Source: a virus. Taken from it: DNA of 63,790 nucleotides. Below are positions 11,773 through 63,790 of the stretch, one piece after another. The DNA is taken from positions 1 to 63,790 of the IMG/VR virus record IMGVR_UViG_3300047546_000805; one strand, given 5' to 3'. Within the stretch, counting starts at the first letter, position 1, and the number at the start of each line of letters is the position of its first letter. The position numbers and the translations under genes were made by a program. The notes beneath the pieces are model-generated. The model saw only the letters and a program-made list of their open reading frames with translations. It was not told the origin of the DNA and did no database searches.

Positions 11773-12588
11773 TCAGCCCTTGAAAACTTTCCCGTCCACT
11801 ACACAGGTGTAATCCTGTGTGATGTGGATTGTTTGTATGTGGGGGTAGAGCCCATCCTTGGTACCCGCCCCGCTTACGACGTGCGCTATGGCAAATCCTT
11901 TCTGCCAGTTCTTCACGTTCGTATACATCATTTTATCATTGGTCTCGTCACTAAGATGCCCGATCTCGTATCCTCGCACCGTTTCTGATCGCAGTTCGTA
12001 GGTTTTGAAGTAATCTCCGATACGGTGGCTGTGTCCTCTGACCAGCGACACATTCCAGTTCTCCACGTCTTTCTTGACCGACTCTCCTGAGTTCTGAGAG
12101 ATAGCGACTCCGTGGTGTACAAAGATGTCACCAAAACGGTGCTTGGGGAGTTGGTCGTAGTAGGTGTACGTAATGCCTAGGTTATCCAGGCCCCACAAAG
12201 ATTCGGGGGTGATGTACTGGGCATACTCTGGAAGTTTCTTATCAAAGTAATCAAAGACCCTAATGTCGTGATTGCCTAGTGACGAGTGTACGTCTGCATT
12301 CGGCGCGGTCTTCCTCACTTGTTCGTAGAAGTCTCTAGCGCCTGCCGCCTCGACCTGGGCGGCGGGGAGGATCAGGTGACCGTCACCTAACTTGTGATGG
12401 TTAGCAAACTCTGCTGGTCGTCCCTCTGTGTATCTGGAGTAGCAGTCCTGATCATCGATGTCTCCAACCAAGTCTACCGCATCTGGCTTGAACCACTTCA
12501 TAACCTTGAAGAAAAGGTCAACGGCGCGGGCGTCATGGTAGGGGAACTGGGTGTCAGACCCTAGCATCCATTTCATATCGTTACTCAT
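11773..12588 (-). CDS. Calcineurin-like metallophosphoesterase
   Basis: 271 residues. The metal-binding motifs appear in order: GSDTQFPYHD (D-x-Q replacing D-x-H), VDLVGDIDDQD (GDxxD), SSLGNHDIRV (GNHD), VHHGVAISQ and RGHSHRIGD (GHxH). Phage members act on phosphodiesters or phosphoproteins; the substrate is unknown here. The first motif carries Gln in place of His, which occurs in part of the family. It lies between the HNH gene and the holin-like gene. Confidence 0.8.
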   Translation of the reverse strand: MSNDMKWMLGSDTQFPYHDARAVDLFFKVMKWFKPDAVDLVGDIDDQDCYSRYTEGRPAEFANHHKLGDGHLILPAAQVEAAGARDFYEQVRKTAPNADVHSSLGNHDIRVFDYFDKKLPEYAQYITPESLWGLDNLGITYTYYDQLPKHRFGDIFVHHGVAISQNSGESVKKDVENWNVSLVRGHSHRIGDYFKTYELRSETVRGYEIGHLSDETNDKMMYTNVKNWQKGFAIAHVVSGAGTKDGLYPHIQTIHITQDYTCVVDGKVFKG

Positions 12589-42094: not shown

Positions 42095-44277
42095 TATCCG
42101 AAGAACCTCACTTGACCAATTCCTCCATTTGTTGAGTTAGAGCCTATACCAACGGCCATTGTTCCAAAAATGTCTGGGAATCCGTTGAGAGGCGGACCAA
42201 CACCGGCCATGTACTTTCCTGCCGAATTGGCCTTGGGCGCTCCCTGCATTCCGGAACCAGAAGTAATATACCATTCCCAAGTGGTTCCAAACTTTGTCAG
42301 CCATATAGTATCACCGGCAACCACTGACGCGCCACACGTTGCTAGCACGGTGTTAGAAGAAGATGCGTCGTAAACAACAAACTGCATGGTTCCCGCGCTA
42401 TCCACTCTGAGGCCGTAGCCATAAAATGACCCTCCCTGTGTTGCAATCTGTCCAGCGTTAATAAATGTACCGGCTTCTGGAAGCGTCCACACAACGGCAC
42501 TCATTGTGAAGAACGCAAGCGCGACGGCCTGGTAAGATCCGTACCTTACCCCCAGGCCCCAGGGCTGCCCGCCACTTGTCCGGGCGTGGTATCCATTAGC
42601 ATCATACTTAAGATTATGGAAGTTTCCAACTTGCAGATTAACATTGATGGGTGACATGACCATAGAATTAGCGCTAGCAGCGGTAATTGTTTCATCTACA
42701 CCGGTATTTGCATAGGTAAATGTTGTTGTTGTTGGCACAGAAGCAACGGTAACTGTTGGGAGCGTTCCATACCCGGACCCAACATTAATTACTGTCAACC
42801 TGTCACCAACCGCGAGTTTGTGGGGCCGGTTTGTTGTCAGCGTAGCAATGTTTGATGATCTGGATCTGTTTGTAATTAGGAGGGGGGTGAGTGATGCTGA
42901 CGCATAGGATCCAGCAGCCGTACTACCAATGTCGCTGCCCGTATTAGAATAAGTAAATGTTGTTGCTCCGGTAACAGTAATGGTGGCATTAGTTGTATTA
43001 AATCCCGCTGCTCCGGTAATAGCATAGAGGTCAACTATATCCCCGGTTGCAAATCCGTGTGACGACGATGTGGTTATTGTAGCAACATTCGAAGTCCTCG
43101 ACACGGTAGAAATATATTTATATGCTTGGTGATGATCCCACGCAGCATTGCCAGATCCTATATTTTTAGGTCTTACAATTTGCTGATCTTCATCTATACG
43201 CCATGACCATCCGGGCGACGGCTGTGGTCGAAGAATCATCGGCTGAACCGTCATCAACCTCCATAACCTATCTCTTGTAGGAGACGGCCATGGAGAACTA
43301 ATAGTTCCTGAGGTTGCCGTGCTATTTATTGTTCCACTAACAAGGCAAAGGAACTGTACTGTGTAGCCATCAACATTGAGAACTATTCTATCTCCGTCAG
43401 CATCGACGTGAATACCGGCAACAGTTATTATGTCTCCTGGCTCTAAACTATGACCACCGGGAATAACAATTGAAAAAAAATTAGTAGATCTTGAGTAGGA
43501 GGATGCTGTCCACCTAGTCACACCGTTTACACCATCGGCCCCCCTTGGGCCTTGTACCTGTGCATATCCAAAGTCGGCGCGTAGGGATGATCCGAAGGTG
43601 TTTGAGTCAGTAGACTCGATAATTCTAAAGTCACCGGCCGACCCGGAACTTGCAGGTATGGGCGCTGAACTAGCGTTGTTGTTTGCCGCCCACATTTGAG
43701 ATTGCTGAACCTTGTTAACGCCAGATCCGGTTTGTGCAAGAGAGACTATTCCGGCCGCAGTTGCAGTAGGCGCAACCCATGTACCGTCAGCGCGCAAAAA
43801 CTGTGTCGTATTATTCGGAGGTACGACTACACCACGAACGCTAGCCGCTGCGGTTGGTAGTATTGCTGCTACTTGAGTACCAGTTAGGTCTGTTGGGTTT
43901 CCTGTTCCCGTTCCTGCGGCCCGGCCCTTGATTGTCTGCTCGGAGACTGTTGCTAACTTTGAATTAGTTACAGCGTTGTTATCAATGGTGAGCGTAGTTC
44001 CGCTACCACCAACAGTAATGTCGCCCTTATCGCCGTCTGTTATGTGAATACCGTGGCTTGTTGCTGCTTTACCAGCAAGGTCGGTTGTCAGGTTTGTTAC
44101 TTGTGACTGTGCTATTGTTACTGGGTCTGAGCCCGCTGATCCATGTGATGCTGCGTGGGCTGCCGGGGTTGGGGCGGCTGTCACAGGCTCCCATCCGGTT
44201 CCGTTCCATTTCCATGTACGGCTACCGTAGGTATATTGCTGATCTAGCGTTGGACTTGATGGAAAATTAATTGGCAT
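42094..44277 (-). CDS. Tail fibre-like protein
   Basis: 727 residues. The N-terminus (PSSPTLDQQYTYGSRTWKWN) is a common phage fibre docking motif. The shaft contains Gly/Thr/Ser repeats (LTTDLAGKAATSHGIHITDG, GRAAGTGTGNPTDLTGTQV) and two duplicated blocks (SRTSNVATITTSSSHGFATG and NRSRSSNIATLTTNRPHKLA). The C-terminal about 180 residues form a lectin-like tip. AGGATAACC precedes its ATG. Confidence 0.75.
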   Translation of the reverse strand: MPINFPSSPTLDQQYTYGSRTWKWNGTGWEPVTAAPTPAAHAASHGSAGSDPVTIAQSQVTNLTTDLAGKAATSHGIHITDGDKGDITVGGSGTTLTIDNNAVTNSKLATVSEQTIKGRAAGTGTGNPTDLTGTQVAAILPTAAASVRGVVVPPNNTTQFLRADGTWVAPTATAAGIVSLAQTGSGVNKVQQSQMWAANNNASSAPIPASSGSAGDFRIIESTDSNTFGSSLRADFGYAQVQGPRGADGVNGVTRWTASSYSRSTNFFSIVIPGGHSLEPGDIITVAGIHVDADGDRIVLNVDGYTVQFLCLVSGTINSTATSGTISSPWPSPTRDRLWRLMTVQPMILRPQPSPGWSWRIDEDQQIVRPKNIGSGNAAWDHHQAYKYISTVSRTSNVATITTSSSHGFATGDIVDLYAITGAAGFNTTNATITVTGATTFTYSNTGSDIGSTAAGSYASASLTPLLITNRSRSSNIATLTTNRPHKLAVGDRLTVINVGSGYGTLPTVTVASVPTTTTFTYANTGVDETITAASANSMVMSPINVNLQVGNFHNLKYDANGYHARTSGGQPWGLGVRYGSYQAVALAFFTMSAVVWTLPEAGTFINAGQIATQGGSFYGYGLRVDSAGTMQFVVYDASSSNTVLATCGASVVAGDTIWLTKFGTTWEWYITSGSGMQGAPKANSAGKYMAGVGPPLNGFPDIFGTMAVGIGSNSTNGGIGQVRFFG

Positions 44278-60502: not shown

Positions 60503-60694
60503 ATGACGGAGATACTGGGCGGCTTTTGCGAACTTGTAAATTTTAGTAATTTTTCAAATTTCAAAATATGGGACGGTTTCTGGGCGGTTTTTTTTGTACC
60601 ACAGATATTCCGGTTTTTGCGAAAGTGCAATTCTGAGTATTTTTCTCAGAAGAACGATTCAGAAAACCTAGCCCGCGAACATGCGTTCGAATAG
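60503..60694 (+). CDS. Doubtful 63-residue Phe-rich frame
   Basis: Follows the previous TGA directly. Its composition (VNFSNFSNFKIWDGFWAVFF) is odd and the DNA is AT-rich, with a T8 run and a hairpin (TTCTGAG 60631-60637 with CTCAGAA 60645-60651). It could be the untranslated end of the early operon instead. Kept only because the frame is open and adjacent. Confidence 0.25.
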   Translation: MTEILGGFCELVNFSNFSNFKIWDGFWAVFFVPQIFRFLRKCNSEYFSQKNDSENLAREHAFE

Positions 60695-60757
60695 TGCGCA
60701 CATACGTAGGTAACGTTTTGGTCACGGAATCGTGGAGCATGCCCGTAGGCCCCTCCA

Positions 60758-60780
60758 TTGTCAGACCCCTCTGCTATGCT
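60758..60780 (+). promoter_or_regulatory. Cassette promoter 1
   Basis: TTGTCA (60758-60763), 11 nt, TATGCT (60775-60780) with TGC before it. First of six elements with an identical 11-nt spacing. Marks the change from the AT-rich operon end to the GC-rich cassettes. Confidence 0.65.
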
Positions 60781-60808
60781 AAGGGTATCGAAAGAGAGAG
60801 GCAAGACA

Positions 60809-61012
60809 GTGAGTATCAAGATCGAAGCCCGTGAGGTCACCCCCGGTATGGTGATCGACAACCCGTCCGCCTTTGCTGTAAAGGGCGCCTTTGGGCCTCT
60901 GTCCATCACGGTACAGTCAGTGTCTACCGTGGTGCGTACTCGTCGCATCGTAGTCGTTGGTGGGGGTCAGCGTCTCACCCTTGCGCCTAACCGCTCCATC
61001 ACCATCCGATGA
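60809..61012 (+). CDS. Cassette 1 protein a (67 aa), small beta protein
   Basis: GTG start at 60809 with GAGAGGCAAGACA upstream, the spacing used by the other cassettes. MSIKIEAREVTPGMVIDNPS, then IVVVGGGQRLTLAPNRSITI. Distant resemblance to the cassette 3 protein (TVTLAPAYRLTY). Basic; possibly nucleic-acid binding. Unknown. Confidence 0.6.
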   Translation: MSIKIEAREVTPGMVIDNPSAFAVKGAFGPLSITVQSVSTVVRTRRIVVVGGGQRLTLAPNRSITIR

Positions 61013-61143
61013 AGGTGCGTAAGGTGCGAGGGGATCACCCCTATGTGGCACCGGGCCTCTGGGTTGTTGAGGTTGATGGCCTTATTGTGAATGTCTTTGC
61101 GACTAAGCGACTAGCCGTTGACTGGATGCGCTACCACCGCTGA
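61009..61143 (+). CDS. Cassette 1 protein b (44 aa)
   Basis: MKVRKVRGDHPYVAPGLWVV followed by EVDGLIVNVFATKRLAVDWM, ending RYHR. ATGA overlap with the gene before it. Basic, beta then helix. Unknown. Confidence 0.55.
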   Translation: MKVRKVRGDHPYVAPGLWVVEVDGLIVNVFATKRLAVDWMRYHR

Positions 61144-61177
61144 GATCCCTTCTCCCCCAACGTTTTCCGGCTGTGCT

Positions 61178-61206
61178 CGAAATCCCTTCTCGCACAAGGG
61201 TTTTCG
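61178..61206 (+). terminator. Hairpin ending cassette 1
   Basis: CGAAATCCCTT (61178-61188) and AAGGGTTTTCG (61196-61206) form a 10-bp stem with one T-T mismatch and a 7-nt loop. It is followed directly by the AAGATCTT-type palindrome copy a. Confidence 0.55.
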
Positions 61207-61209
61207 GGT

Positions 61210-61232
61210 GCGGGGTAAGGTCTTGGCCCGCC
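61210..61232. repeat. AAGATCTT palindrome, copy a (diverged)
   Basis: GCGGGGTAAGGTCTTGGCCC plus GCC. Most diverged of five copies. Followed by CTTAAGAATGTGGGTTACGT, which also recurs before cassette promoters. Confidence 0.55.
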
Positions 61233-61301
61233 ATTTCTAGTTTGTCAAGTCTTAAGAATGTGGGTTACGTCACATGGAAATATGCCTCTAGGGGGTAGCG
61301 G

Positions 61302-61324
61302 CTGTCAGTGGTTCATGCTAGTCT
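61302..61324 (+). promoter_or_regulatory. Cassette promoter 2
   Basis: CTGTCA (61302-61307), 11 nt, TAGTCT (61319-61324), TGC before the -10. Leader with AGAGGGAGC before ATG 61353. Confidence 0.65.
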
Positions 61325-61352
61325 AGGACTACCAACAAAGAGGGAGCACGAA

Positions 61353-61487
61353 ATGAGCGGCATCCAGGTCCACGACAACGGCAACGCAGCCTGCCTCACC
61401 TGGCGCGTGGTGAACGAGGATGGCACCACCGGCCCGTGGCACGCTGGCCCCGTGCCTGCCTACCTATCCATGCAGCCCTCTAAGTAA
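61353..61487 (+). CDS. Cassette 2 protein a (44 aa)
   Basis: MSGIQVHDNGNAACLTWRVV, then NEDGTTGPWHAGPVPAYLSM, ending QPSK. GC-rich codon choice unlike the left arm. Own promoter and AGAGGGAG site. Unknown. Confidence 0.6.
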   Translation: MSGIQVHDNGNAACLTWRVVNEDGTTGPWHAGPVPAYLSMQPSK

Positions 61488-61495
61488 GGAAGATC

Positions 61496-61732
61496 ATGAA
61501 CATCTGGATCACCGTAGTCGAGCACTATGGCTCTCGTTCCGTCTCGCTCTTTGACGTAGAGCAGACTAAGCCTGGCTGCCTTCCGCCCCAGGTTGCACGT
61601 TTTGATTACACCGACCGCTCGCTCTCTAATGAGGAGTTGGTTGGAAGGTCGGCCCTTGCCCATCTCGGAGAGGGTGACTACATCATCCGTCCCGGTGACG
61701 TGAAAAACTTGTGGTCCTGCCAGTTGGCTTGA
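61496..61732 (+). CDS. Cassette 2 protein b (78 aa)
   Basis: MNIWITVVEHYGSRSVSLFD, later ELVGRSALAHLGEGDYIIRP. AAGGAAG lies 4 nt upstream. Mixed alpha/beta; no motif. Unknown. Confidence 0.6.
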   Translation: MNIWITVVEHYGSRSVSLFDVEQTKPGCLPPQVARFDYTDRSLSNEELVGRSALAHLGEGDYIIRPGDVKNLWSCQLA

Positions 61733-61735
61733 CCG

Positions 61736-61768
61736 CCCGCCCCTGGCGGGGCAAGATCTTAGCCCGCC
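61736..61768 (+). repeat. Competing hairpins and AAGATCTT palindrome, copy b
   Basis: GGCGGG at 61745-61750 can pair with CCCGCC upstream (61736-61741, 3-nt loop) or with CCCGCC downstream (61763-61768), where the palindrome GGCGGGGC-AAGATCTT-AGCC is centred. The two folds exclude each other, a layout seen in attenuators. It may instead be a two-sided terminator. Confidence 0.65.
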
Positions 61769-61847
61769 TCCCCCACCTGTCAAGCCCTTACGATGTGGTT
61801 TACGTCACCACTGGATGTTACCCTACCGTTATCAAAAACGGCCTCCA

Positions 61848-61870
61848 CTGTCAGACCCCCGTGCTACGCT
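61848..61870 (+). promoter_or_regulatory. Cassette promoter 3
   Basis: CTGTCA (61848-61853), 11 nt, TACGCT (61865-61870). Preceded by CTTACGATGTGGTTTACGTC about 50-70 nt upstream. AGAAAGGGAAAGACA leads to ATG 61895. Confidence 0.65.
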
Positions 61871-61894
61871 ATGAGTAACAGAAAGGGAAAGACA

Positions 61895-62089
61895 ATGGAT
61901 AAGGGTCGCTTCACTACCTCCCGCATCAACGCCTCGCGCGTGCGTGTGGGTACCGTCCTCTACCACGGTGGGCAGGTCACCGCTGTTGGTCGCAACACTG
62001 ACGGGAGCGTGTCTATCACGCACCAGTGGGGAACCGTTACCCTGGCCCCTGCCTACCGTCTCACCTACTACCCGCGTCTCGGGGGCTGA
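61895..62089 (+). CDS. Cassette 3 protein a (64 aa), small beta protein
   Basis: MDKGRFTTSRINASRVRVGT then VLYHGGQVTAVGRNTDGSVS and GTVTLAPAYRLTYYPRLGG. Six beta strands likely (SH3-like). Basic, as cassette 1a, and possibly related to it. Unknown. Confidence 0.6.
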   Translation: MDKGRFTTSRINASRVRVGTVLYHGGQVTAVGRNTDGSVSITHQWGTVTLAPAYRLTYYPRLGG

Positions 62090-62090
62090 C

Positions 62091-62276
62091 ATGATCGTCA
62101 CTATCTGGACCAAGCCCGATCAGGGCAACATTCAGCGTACTTGCCGTATCTGTGGCGAGACCTATCAGGGCTGGAATTTCGTTCGGTGCGCCGCTTGCGC
62201 CCATATTCCTGTCGAGGTTGCGCACGTATGGCGCGACTACGTTCCTCCTACTGCCGCAACGGGTTTCGGTCGCTGA
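62091..62276 (+). CDS. Cassette 3 protein b (61 aa), zinc ribbon
   Basis: ATG at 62091 with CGGGGG upstream. CRICGE and CAACAH give four cysteines 15 residues apart, a classic zinc ribbon. Early phage zinc ribbons of this size can bind host RNA polymerase. Unknown here. Confidence 0.65.
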   Translation: MIVTIWTKPDQGNIQRTCRICGETYQGWNFVRCAACAHIPVEVAHVWRDYVPPTAATGFGR

Positions 62277-62319
62277 AATCCCTTGCGCCACAAGCCATTT
62301 CGGCGCTGAGAAACCCAAT

Positions 62320-62346
62320 CCTCTGAGGACTTGTGACCCTCAGGGG
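62320..62346 (+). terminator. Hairpin ending cassette 3
   Basis: CCTCTGAGG (62320-62328) pairs with CCTCAGGGG (62338-62346), 9 bp with one G-T pair and a 9-nt loop, just before palindrome copy c. Confidence 0.6.
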
Positions 62347-62347
62347 T

Positions 62348-62369
62348 GCGGGGCAAGATCTTCCCCCGC
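62348..62369. repeat. AAGATCTT palindrome, copy c
   Basis: GCGGGGCAAGATCTTCCCCC plus GC: 22 nt, self-complementary except for one C-C pair. The most perfect copy. Confidence 0.65.
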
Positions 62370-62427
62370 CTGGTTCGAAATAGCAAGTTACGAGCCGAAG
62401 AAAAATCCCCCGGTTTTCGACTTGCGG

Positions 62428-62450
62428 CTGTCAGACCGCCATGCTACGCT
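62428..62450 (+). promoter_or_regulatory. Cassette promoter 4
   Basis: CTGTCA (62428-62433), 11 nt, TACGCT (62445-62450), TGC before the -10. GAGAGGACC leads to ATG 62480. Confidence 0.65.
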
Positions 62451-62479
62451 AGGGCTACCAACCAGCGAGAGGACCAGCC

Positions 62480-62653
62480 ATGACCACCGCCCTTTCCTTC
62501 ACCGCCGCCCACGACGCGCTCCGCGCGGCTGGGATGCCCGACTACATCGCTGAGGACGTGGCCCTCACCCTCACGGGCGGCGACCGCTTCGTGCCCGAGG
62601 ACGTGCTGTGGTGGACGTTCAACTCCGTTATGCGCGAACTCGCGGAGGCGTGA
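62480..62653 (+). CDS. Cassette 4 protein (57 aa)
   Basis: MTTALSFTAAHDALRAAGMP followed by DYIAEDVALTLTGGDRFVPE and DVLWWTFNSVMRELAEA. Helical, acidic, strongly GC-rich codons. Single-gene cassette. Unknown. Confidence 0.65.
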   Translation: MTTALSFTAAHDALRAAGMPDYIAEDVALTLTGGDRFVPEDVLWWTFNSVMRELAEA

Positions 62654-62659
62654 GCCCTT

Positions 62660-62697
62660 GCGCCCCTCCGGGGGCGCGGGGCAAGATCTTAGCCCGC
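62660..62697 (+). terminator. Strong hairpin plus AAGATCTT palindrome, copy d
   Basis: GCGCCCC (62660-62666), loop TCCG, GGGGCGC (62671-62677) is a 7-bp perfect stem 6 nt after the stop. It overlaps the palindrome GCGGGGCAAGATCTTAGCCC (from 62676), so the two folds compete as in copy b. Confidence 0.7.
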
Positions 62698-62790
62698 CGT
62701 GCCTGCCTGTCAATGGTTACGACTGACTAAAATATTCCCCCGAAAAATAGTCACTTAGGGCTAGGAAAAATGTCCGTTTCTAGGCCCTCA

Positions 62791-62813
62791 CTGTCAGACC
62801 CCTATGCTAGACT
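62791..62813 (+). promoter_or_regulatory. Cassette promoter 5
   Basis: CTGTCA (62791-62796), 11 nt, TAGACT (62808-62813). AGAAAGGCAAGAC leads to ATG 62843. Confidence 0.65.
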
Positions 62814-62842
62814 GAGAGCAACAGCAAACAGAAAGGCAAGAC

Positions 62843-63040
62843 ATGAACGACCTCTACCCCTCCGCCGCTTACTGCCCCATCTGCGACAACGGCGTGATCG
62901 ACCACGGTCGCGGCGTGGTCGATGTGTTCTACGCCTGGGAGGGTGAGGACGACTTCCTCGCCGCGCTCGCTGGCCTCGGCATTGAGGCCTTCGGTGAGAT
63001 CCCGTGCTCGCCTGAGTGTTACTACCGTTGGGACTGCTGA
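62843..63040 (+). CDS. Cassette 5 protein a (65 aa), zinc finger
   Basis: MNDLYPSAAYCPICDNGVID with CPIC, and a C-terminal CSPECYYRWDC. Four or five cysteines suit one zinc. Acidic helix between (GEDDFLAALAGLGIEAFGE). Unknown early protein. Confidence 0.65.
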   Translation: MNDLYPSAAYCPICDNGVIDHGRGVVDVFYAWEGEDDFLAALAGLGIEAFGEIPCSPECYYRWDC

Positions 63041-63044
63041 TATC

Positions 63045-63233
63045 ATGTTCTACGTGTTCATCGAGTTTGACGGCCCTAACGGTCGCACGCGCTTCACGCG
63101 CGGATTCACGTCCGCCGCTGCTCGGGAGGACTGGGCTTCTGGTGTCAAGCCGCTCCCCGGTGACGAGTGGAGCGACTACGAGGAGTGGGAGGCCCCTCAG
63201 TCCGAGTGGGCTCACGTTCCTATCATCGGGTAG
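63045..63233 (+). CDS. Cassette 5 protein b (62 aa)
   Basis: ATG at 63045, 4 nt after the previous stop, without a clear ribosome site (coupled). MFYVFIEFDGPNGRTRFTRG, then acidic, Trp-rich C-terminus (DEWSDYEEWEAPQSEW). Unknown. Confidence 0.6.
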   Translation: MFYVFIEFDGPNGRTRFTRGFTSAAAREDWASGVKPLPGDEWSDYEEWEAPQSEWAHVPIIG

Positions 63234-63235
63234 GA

Positions 63236-63255
63236 CGGGGCAAGATCTTCCCCCG
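63236..63255. repeat. AAGATCTT palindrome, copy e
   Basis: CGGGGCAAGATCTTCCCCCG, 20 nt with one mismatch, 3 nt after the cassette 5 stop. Followed by CTTACGACTGTGACTTACGT, the same spacer element as before promoters 2 and 3. Confidence 0.65.
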
Positions 63256-63338
63256 CCAGGACGATCTTCGCAACCCTTACGACTGTGACTTACGTCTCCC
63301 TGAAACCGTTACCTCCCCGTTACCAAAACCGGCTCTCG

Positions 63339-63361
63339 TTGTCAGTAGTCCATGCTAGGAT
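63339..63361 (+). promoter_or_regulatory. Cassette promoter 6
   Basis: TTGTCA (63339-63344), 11 nt, TAGGAT (63356-63361). GAAAGG leads to ATG 63386. Confidence 0.65.
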
Positions 63362-63385
63362 CGTACTAACGAAAGGATGAGAAAC

Positions 63386-63649
63386 ATGATCGGTCAGATC
63401 TTCCAGCAGACCCGCCGCCCCGTGGGCGAGTTGCCCGAGTTTTGCCGCCTGGTGGGTGCCTGCGGCATGGCGATCCCCGTGCGTATCCGCCGTGGTGAGC
63501 GTACTGGCATGATGATCGTGCTTGACCTTGCCACCGGCAAGGCTGCCGTGTTCGAGCCTACCAAGATCGTGGACGCTCTCGTTCCCGAGTCCTGGGAGTC
63601 CGCCCGGCTCGACATTGAGTTTGACCTGATGATGAGGGGTGTCCTGTGA
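63386..63649 (+). CDS. Cassette 6 protein a (87 aa)
   Basis: Start at 63386 (MIGQIFQQTRRPVGELPEFC) is chosen because GAAAGG has the cassette spacing to it; the ATG at 63377 would touch that site. Core IPVRIRRGERTGMMIVLDLA, KIVDALVPESWESARLDIE. Unknown. Confidence 0.6.
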   Translation: MIGQIFQQTRRPVGELPEFCRLVGACGMAIPVRIRRGERTGMMIVLDLATGKAAVFEPTKIVDALVPESWESARLDIEFDLMMRGVL

Positions 63650-63790
63650 CCAAGCGCATGAGCCGAACCGATATCATGTTCTACGCCATGAGCATTGGCC
63701 TGACCTACGCCGAGGCGGAGGATATCGCCCACACACTCTCGCCGGAGTGTCGTGGCGTTGCCGAGTGGCACGTCTACCGCTACATCGACC
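63646..63790 (+). CDS. Cassette 6 protein b, N-terminal part (runs off right edge)
   Basis: GTG at 63646 overlaps the previous stop (GTGA); ATG 63658 is an alternative. Reads MTKRMSRTDIMFYAMSIGLT then YAEAEDIAHTLSPECRGVAE and onward to the edge. Helical. The array therefore continues past the window. Confidence 0.55.
   Translation, partial: MTKRMSRTDIMFYAMSIGLTYAEAEDIAHTLSPECRGVAEWHVYRYID

Follow-up and report, generated by a model that had tools for sequence, protein, structure and literature searches.

LexA/RecA-independent DNA-damage promoters of mycobacteria share the consensus tTGTCRgtg - 8 nt - TannnT (PMC5656591), and RecA-NDp promoters stand ahead of many damage-response genes in Actinomycetales, Streptomyces included (PMC5087735). 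PafBC works via the RecA-NDp motif (PMC6789036); it sits between the promoter and domain 4 of sigma-A, with PafB reading the -26 motif, and is activated by single-stranded DNA (ssDNA) (PMC11804915). Here we describe an array of six promoters that closely resemble this type, each followed by one or two tiny genes, at the end (from position 60,758) of the viral record IMGVR_UViG_3300047546_000805. The window analysed is the entire IMG/VR record, which is linear, comprises 63,790 bases and has no end repeats.

Small early genes are clustered in the terminal redundancy of other large phages, as in the host-takeover module of Bacillus phage SPO1 and the T5 pre-early region. SPO1 early genes have host sigma-A promoters and no DNA-damage activator. 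In the middle promoters of T4, the -35 element is replaced by a MotA box, which precedes the -10 box by about 12 nt. Phages redirect host RNA polymerase with factors of their own, or answer the SOS response via repressors. No report of phage genes directly under actinobacterial PafBC/sigma-adaptation was found in the open-access literature searched. The closest described phage regions are the direct terminal repeats (DTRs) of Streptomyces cluster BE phages (Genie2, Mildred21, StarPlatinum), in which many small genes each have their own promoter and hairpin (UUCG in Genie2), accompanied by AAGATCTT palindromes. They share with the clade described here the neighbouring ribonucleotide reductase (RNR), glycosyltransferase and ThyX genes, an end signal and orthologous genes. 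The DTRs of BE1 phages are described as about 11 kb long (PMC5764925).

The explanation that we favour is that host PafBC, activated by ssDNA, drives separate units in the terminal repeat, each made of a promoter, one or two tiny genes and a hairpin or palindrome. The phage would be an actinobacterial one related to Stanwilliamsviridae (Streptomyces cluster BE). We put the probability of this explanation, taken as a whole, at roughly three in four, on the strength of sequence comparison.

Six promoters of PafBC type

All six promoters lie on the + strand and combine TGTCA, exactly 11 nt and TAnnnT, with TGC preceding the TA in 6/6. In the list, L021 is a close relative of the window phage, and the host matrix is a weight matrix made from 41 host recA sites only.

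60,759 to 60,780, + strand: PafBC-type promoter 1, TGTCAGACCCCTCTGCTATGCT; TGTCGG in L021
61,303 to 61,324, + strand: PafBC-type promoter 2, TGTCAGTGGTTCATGCTAGTCT; identical in L021
61,849 to 61,870, + strand: PafBC-type promoter 3, TGTCAGACCCCCGTGCTACGCT; found by motif and host matrix
62,429 to 62,450, + strand: PafBC-type promoter 4, TGTCAGACCGCCATGCTACGCT; host-matrix rank 10
62,792 to 62,813, + strand: PafBC-type promoter 5, TGTCAGACCCCTATGCTAGACT; top window site by host matrix
63,340 to 63,361, + strand: PafBC-type promoter 6, TGTCAGTAGTCCATGCTAGGAT; found by motif and host matrix

The initial annotation had proposed six promoters with a fixed 11-nt spacing, and this holds: TGTCAG-N10-TAnnnT occurs 6 times, against a mean of 0.0055 and a maximum of 1 in 2000 dinucleotide-preserving shuffles of positions 60,658-63,790. 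Spacings other than 11 nt gave 0-2 matches each in the window, and the stricter form TGTCR-N8-TGnTAnnnT has one further window match, at 42,635 on the - strand. Each promoter thus has TGTCR at -26 and, after exactly 11 nt, TAnnnT with an extended -10 (TGn); the start codons lie 24-29 nt downstream of the -10 box. The published consensus implies 11 nt from TGTCR to TA, as in 6/6 array sites. Promoter 1 differs between the window and L021 solely at the R of TGTCR (TGTCAG vs TGTCGG), the rest of the box being identical. The array also begins where it was first placed, but its proposed end is merely the end of the 63,790-base record.

Comparison with bacterial promoters was made through recA loci, which were returned as database sequence by a RecA query used as bait only. 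TGTCR-N11-TAnnnT precedes recA in 44/48 of the loci placed in the actinobacterial group (among them L151, whose label is Proteobacteria although its recA is Cellulomonas-like) and in 1/31 others, a group that includes the deep-branching Acidimicrobiaceae (L168) and Rubrobacteraceae (L172), both without the motif. In a further sample of 20 actinobacteria, mostly with small genomes, the count was 19/20, and the reversed control gave 0/20. Host and phage sites share two flavours, TGTCRGTGG and TGTCRGACC, and by the host matrix the array promoters rank 1-5 and 10 in the 63.8 kb window. Like PafBC/RecA-NDp (recA P1) promoters, those of the array lack a -35 box, carry TGTCR at -26 with TAnnnT 11 nt further on, and show the two flanking flavours. 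They differ in standing in multiple copies on a phage genome, in having an extended -10 and, for half of the window cassettes, in being accompanied by a phased CRP-like site; they precede tiny phage genes, whereas those of the host precede repair genes. A region with "its own regulatory code" had been suggested at first. This does not stand, since the promoters have the sequence, spacing and variants of those of host PafBC, and the third element of the cassettes is CRP/GlxR-like.

A tandem WYL pair (pafB-pafC-like) was present in 8/8 actinobacterial genomes tested, while searches of 22 phage records found no WYL (PafBC-like) gene. Because the phage encodes no PafBC-like protein, the host's own PafBC would be the driver. 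In the mechanism that we propose, ssDNA from infecting genome ends, early replication or host-DNA damage would load host PafBC, which would link the -26 element to domain 4 of sigma-A and thereby recruit ordinary RNA polymerase. The extended -10 may give some basal, PafBC-independent activity. If this is true, infection itself should turn the genes on via ssDNA, how well the phage fares should depend in part on PafBC, and infection should respond to DNA-damaging agents.

The same promoters recur in related contigs. The window RNR (53,098) has about 60% identity to RNRs of Streptomyces cluster BE phages, and its glycosyltransferase (55,124) has 71% identity to the copy in G001, a 115 kb viral contig in which a ThyX gene was also read, and 52% to the copy in Streptomyces phage Genie2. 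Nucleotide searches of cultured phages with the array and with the main body gave no match, and the ORF 10 protein, searched singly against viral contigs, found no relative; synteny through the glycosyltransferase was therefore used instead, yielding a related set of 80 viral contigs. The AT-rich members mostly have 2 to 13 PafBC-type promoters, which with few exceptions share a strand and form a single block. The 138 unique sites of these glycosyltransferase-linked contigs have the consensus AA-TGTCAG(T/A)(G/C)...TGnTATA(C/A)T, with the start codon at a median of 34 nt after the -10 box and a median open reading frame (ORF) of 61 amino acids. A separate pattern scan often gave 2-7 strict matches per stretch, and its reversed pattern 1 per stretch in all 80 listed. 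At a spacing of 11 nt there were 113 and 327 unique sites, vs few at nearly all other spacings; a secondary peak at 6 nt is ascribed to ATGCTA, which overlaps within these promoters. If borne out, this gives a sequence rule for locating early genes across hundreds of uncultured actinophage contigs. No PafBC-type promoter was found in the contig G008, and Streptomyces phages had 0-2 scattered matches.

These counts also bear on whether the promoters are ordinary extended -10 sigma-A promoters, constitutive from entry, in which TGTCAG is vestigial or makes no more than a minor upstream contact. TGnTAnnnT is indeed present in 6/6 array promoters, and the Streptomyces relatives retain the cassettes with ordinary promoters; the DTRs of BE phages use TTGnnn-17-TAnnnT, without PafBC-type arrays or CRP-like sites. 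G001 carries both classes, with PafBC-type promoters in the 3 kb nearest the terminus and TTGAC-N17-TAnnnT in the deeper cassettes (52-62 kb). However, TGTCAG is conserved equally with the -10 box, exactly 11 nt away in hundreds of sites, and lies six nt too close to serve as a -35 hexamer, which makes such a reading improbable. A promoter scan found no forward sigma-70-type promoter in the array and no proper -35 hexamer at 17 nt; in AT-rich relatives a weak TTGATA-like stretch remains at the -35 position.

Alternatively, a phage-encoded activator might bind TGTCAG at -26 and redirect host RNA polymerase, as T4 does with MotA/AsiA, the likeness to host promoters being due to convergence or ancient borrowing. 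The strategy is common in large phages, most genes here are of unknown function, and G001 encodes a MerR-type helix-turn-helix (HTH) protein. Yet the 22 phage records hold no WYL gene, and the match to the host core, with its spacing, TGTCR variation, GTGG/GACC flanks and host-matrix scores, exceeds what a phage-specific box would need. T4 encodes both activator and co-activator, whereas the phages here have no PafBC-like gene. We consider this alternative unlikely, if slightly less so than the sigma-A one. No candidate for a T4-like activator was found.

Several observations weigh against control by host PafBC in a terminal repeat, the MerR-type protein of G001 among them. With the host matrix G001 gives a less clear result: its array sites rank 1, 2, 6 and 8, and some of them score below the best reversed-matrix match (12.3). 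Most host recA promoters lack the extended -10 of the phage promoters, which might therefore be partly active in the absence of PafBC. Because the related contigs share ancestry, site counts overstate the evidence. Finally, the window record is incomplete and shows a single copy of the region.

The genome end and the terminal repeat

Seven complete records of Stanwilliamsviridae, whose DTRs measure 734-12,432 bp, have the TAG of ATAGTGCGCCCATA exactly 34 bp inside the repeat end; two of the seven, G020 and Genie2, have equal repeat length and junction and are not independent. The Genie2 copy stands at 12,385-12,398, and the genes beside RNR/glycosyltransferase in that phage lie in an exact DTR of 12,432 bp. 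ATAGTGCGCCCATA, which occurs just ahead of the first cassette in nearly all relatives, is probably the end-recognition signal of the terminase and provides a conserved marker of genome ends in a major phage family. The window holds the signal with one C-to-A change:

60,657 to 60,704, + strand: predicted genome terminus and inner DTR end; cut near 60,657, between GAACG and ATTCAG, with the signal ATAGTGCGCACATA at 60,691-60,704

The signal and its junction (G/AT) are common to the window, L021, G001 and the AT-rich relatives. Promoter 1 follows the end signal by about 67 nt, which puts the start of the array about 100 bp inward of the predicted physical end. Since the end signal is 34 bp from the terminus in complete records, we infer that the window array lies in a DTR, of which this 63.8 kb fragment would show one copy. 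The G+C content of the array (57-61%, vs about 50% elsewhere in the window) agrees with the GC-richer region first noted. In G001, a homologous GC-rich block of about 13 kb (52-65 kb) lies mid-contig between gene arms of opposite polarity, which is consistent with the position of a collapsed terminal repeat.

The array could instead lie near the contig end yet outside any terminal repeat, as an accessory or middle-gene region. The linear record without end repeats, showing the region once, would fit this. We regard it as a poor prospect given the seven complete records with the signal exactly 34 bp from the terminus, its position about 67 nt before promoter 1 in the window, the G001 block placed between two unique arms like a collapsed repeat, and the orthology of array genes to DTR genes. 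The modular plan at a genome end that the initial annotation compared with SPO1 is likewise supported by the end signal and by the plan of the 11-12 kb DTRs of BE phages.

CRP/GlxR-like sites and palindromes

A further element, CTTACGAnTGTGGnTTACGT, had been described before several promoters. Its literal form occurs once (61,787); with variants at 61,255 and 63,276 it is found in 3/6 cassettes. It overlaps TGTG-N8-CACA, the half-sites of the CRP/GlxR type.

61,259 to 61,274, no strand: CRP/GlxR-like site TGTGGGTTACGTCACA (perfect), 44 nt upstream of TGTC
61,794 to 61,809, no strand: CRP/GlxR-like site TGTGGTTTACGTCACC (imperfect), 55 nt upstream of TGTC
63,284 to 63,299, no strand: CRP/GlxR-like site TGTGACTTACGTCTCC (imperfect), 56 nt upstream of TGTC

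Upstream of the 138 related-contig promoters, TGTG-N8-CACA has 50 matches vs 0.2 in shuffles, and CRP-like sites number 57 in 26.8 kb upstream of PafBC-type promoters vs 125 in the other 707 kb. Their starts cluster at -44, -54, -65 and -76 relative to TGTC, successive clusters being one turn of the helix apart. Helical phasing at 10.5 bp, seen in loci L046-L099 and L198-L277, has a Rayleigh R of 0.86 and was repeated in other contigs with R 0.64; p values are nominal, because the contigs are related. With a start site 7 nt past the -10 box, the centres fall near -64.5, -74.5, -85.5 and -96.5, positions similar to those of class I activators. Activation by PafBC would then be reinforced by a CRP-family activator of the host, bound to the same face of the DNA. 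No CRP-type HTH protein was found in 17 phage records searched, and the terminal repeats of BE phages have no such CRP-like sites.

Beyond the window, a large actinophage group may keep take-over genes at its chromosome ends under host PafBC, with a phased CRP-family second input; the host's damage alarm, once tripped by infection, would then set the take-over going. One lineage would have swapped its promoters from sigma-A while cassettes and ends stayed unchanged. We hold this wider picture tentatively, at somewhat short of an even chance.

CGGCGTGTCG recurs on either strand in AT-rich arrays, often 18 nt before TGTC. It was seen in L046, L051, L061, L062, L071, L072, L082 and L094, as well as upstream of recA in L142, L149 and L152.

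Five palindromes were first described as separating the cassettes. Four are exact copies of GGGGCAAGATCTTnnCCC, vs 0 in 2000 shuffles, but the one at 61,212 is degenerate.

61,212 to 61,229, no strand: palindrome 1, degenerate, GGGGTAAGGTCTTGGCCC
61,748 to 61,765, no strand: palindrome 2, GGGGCAAGATCTTAGCCC
62,350 to 62,367, no strand: palindrome 3, GGGGCAAGATCTTCCCCC
62,678 to 62,695, no strand: palindrome 4, GGGGCAAGATCTTAGCCC
63,237 to 63,254, no strand: palindrome 5, GGGGCAAGATCTTCCCCC

The units are probably kept apart by the palindromes and hairpins, which may be terminators or may be operators. A terminator scan shows no hairpin with a T-run at the window palindromes, and in folding these copies do not exceed shuffled sequence (z 0.3 to -1.6); two palindrome copies of G001 fold well (z -2.6 and -5.8). 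On the - strand, TTGACA-16-TAAGAT at 61,756-61,783 and 62,686-62,713 overlaps two of the palindromes, and these are possible, though unsupported, antisense promoters.

Tiny genes and their spread among phages

The six cassettes encode ORFs of 67+44, 44+78, 64+61, 57, 65+62 and 87 plus at least 48 amino acids, the last being open. One or two genes of 44-87 amino acids per promoter, as first described, are thus confirmed, with a second ORF in the last cassette too.

60,809 to 61,012, + strand: ORF 1, 67 amino acids, GTG start; homologue in L021, similar ORF at the corresponding position in L001/G001
61,009 to 61,143, + strand: ORF 2, 44 amino acids; homologue in L021, similar ORF in L001
61,353 to 61,487, + strand: ORF 3, 44 amino acids
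61,496 to 61,732, + strand: ORF 4, 78 amino acids
61,895 to 62,089, + strand: ORF 5, 64 amino acids
62,091 to 62,276, + strand: ORF 6, 61 amino acids, with two pairs of Cys; its likeness to a zinc ribbon falls below the cut-off
62,480 to 62,653, + strand: ORF 7, 57 amino acids; G001 homologue behind the same promoter type
62,843 to 63,040, + strand: ORF 8, 65 amino acids
63,045 to 63,233, + strand: ORF 9, 62 amino acids
63,386 to 63,649, + strand: ORF 10, 87 amino acids, alternative ATG at 63,377; similar ORF in L001 (926-1246, - strand)
63,646 to 63,790, + strand: ORF 11, continuing past the record end

Alignment with relatives, which had been proposed as a check, finds ORFs 1 and 2 and promoters 1 and 2 kept in L021. 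Substitutions between the homologues number 10/5/21 by codon position in ORF 1 and 1/1/11 in ORF 2, a pattern that supports coding in both. G001 has counterparts of ORFs 1, 2, 7 and 10, the likeness of 1, 2 and 10 being judged by eye. Searched against Pfam and PHROGs, the array proteins gave no hit above cut-off and no family of known function. On the favoured explanation they are probably early host-take-over or counter-defence proteins; a take-over role is plausible by analogy with SPO1 and T5, to which the array has no sequence relation. Many small uncharacterised proteins would thereby become candidates for host inhibition or counter-defence.

A DUF932-type protein behind a PafBC-type promoter has about 50% identity to a terminal-repeat gene of BE phages, where there are two copies; this orthology implies that the cassettes are homologous and the promoter class different. 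Cultured Gordonia, Arthrobacter and Rhodococcus phages with a DUF932 gene showed no PafBC-type promoters in the regions read. Other phage lineages may use the same promoter code, because 31/45 of the pattern-scan contigs are without the glycosyltransferase, although some are short fragments. Contigs such as G048, G051, G055, G061 and G066 and others (those behind L198-L277) lack a related glycosyltransferase; they are 67-113 kb long and have 1-6 PafBC-type sites per locus read. The terminal-repeat block of G001 also holds a gene of 263 amino acids (L016, 18,839-19,627, - strand), and a scan of G001 found one GP88 (PF17338) protein, probably the same.

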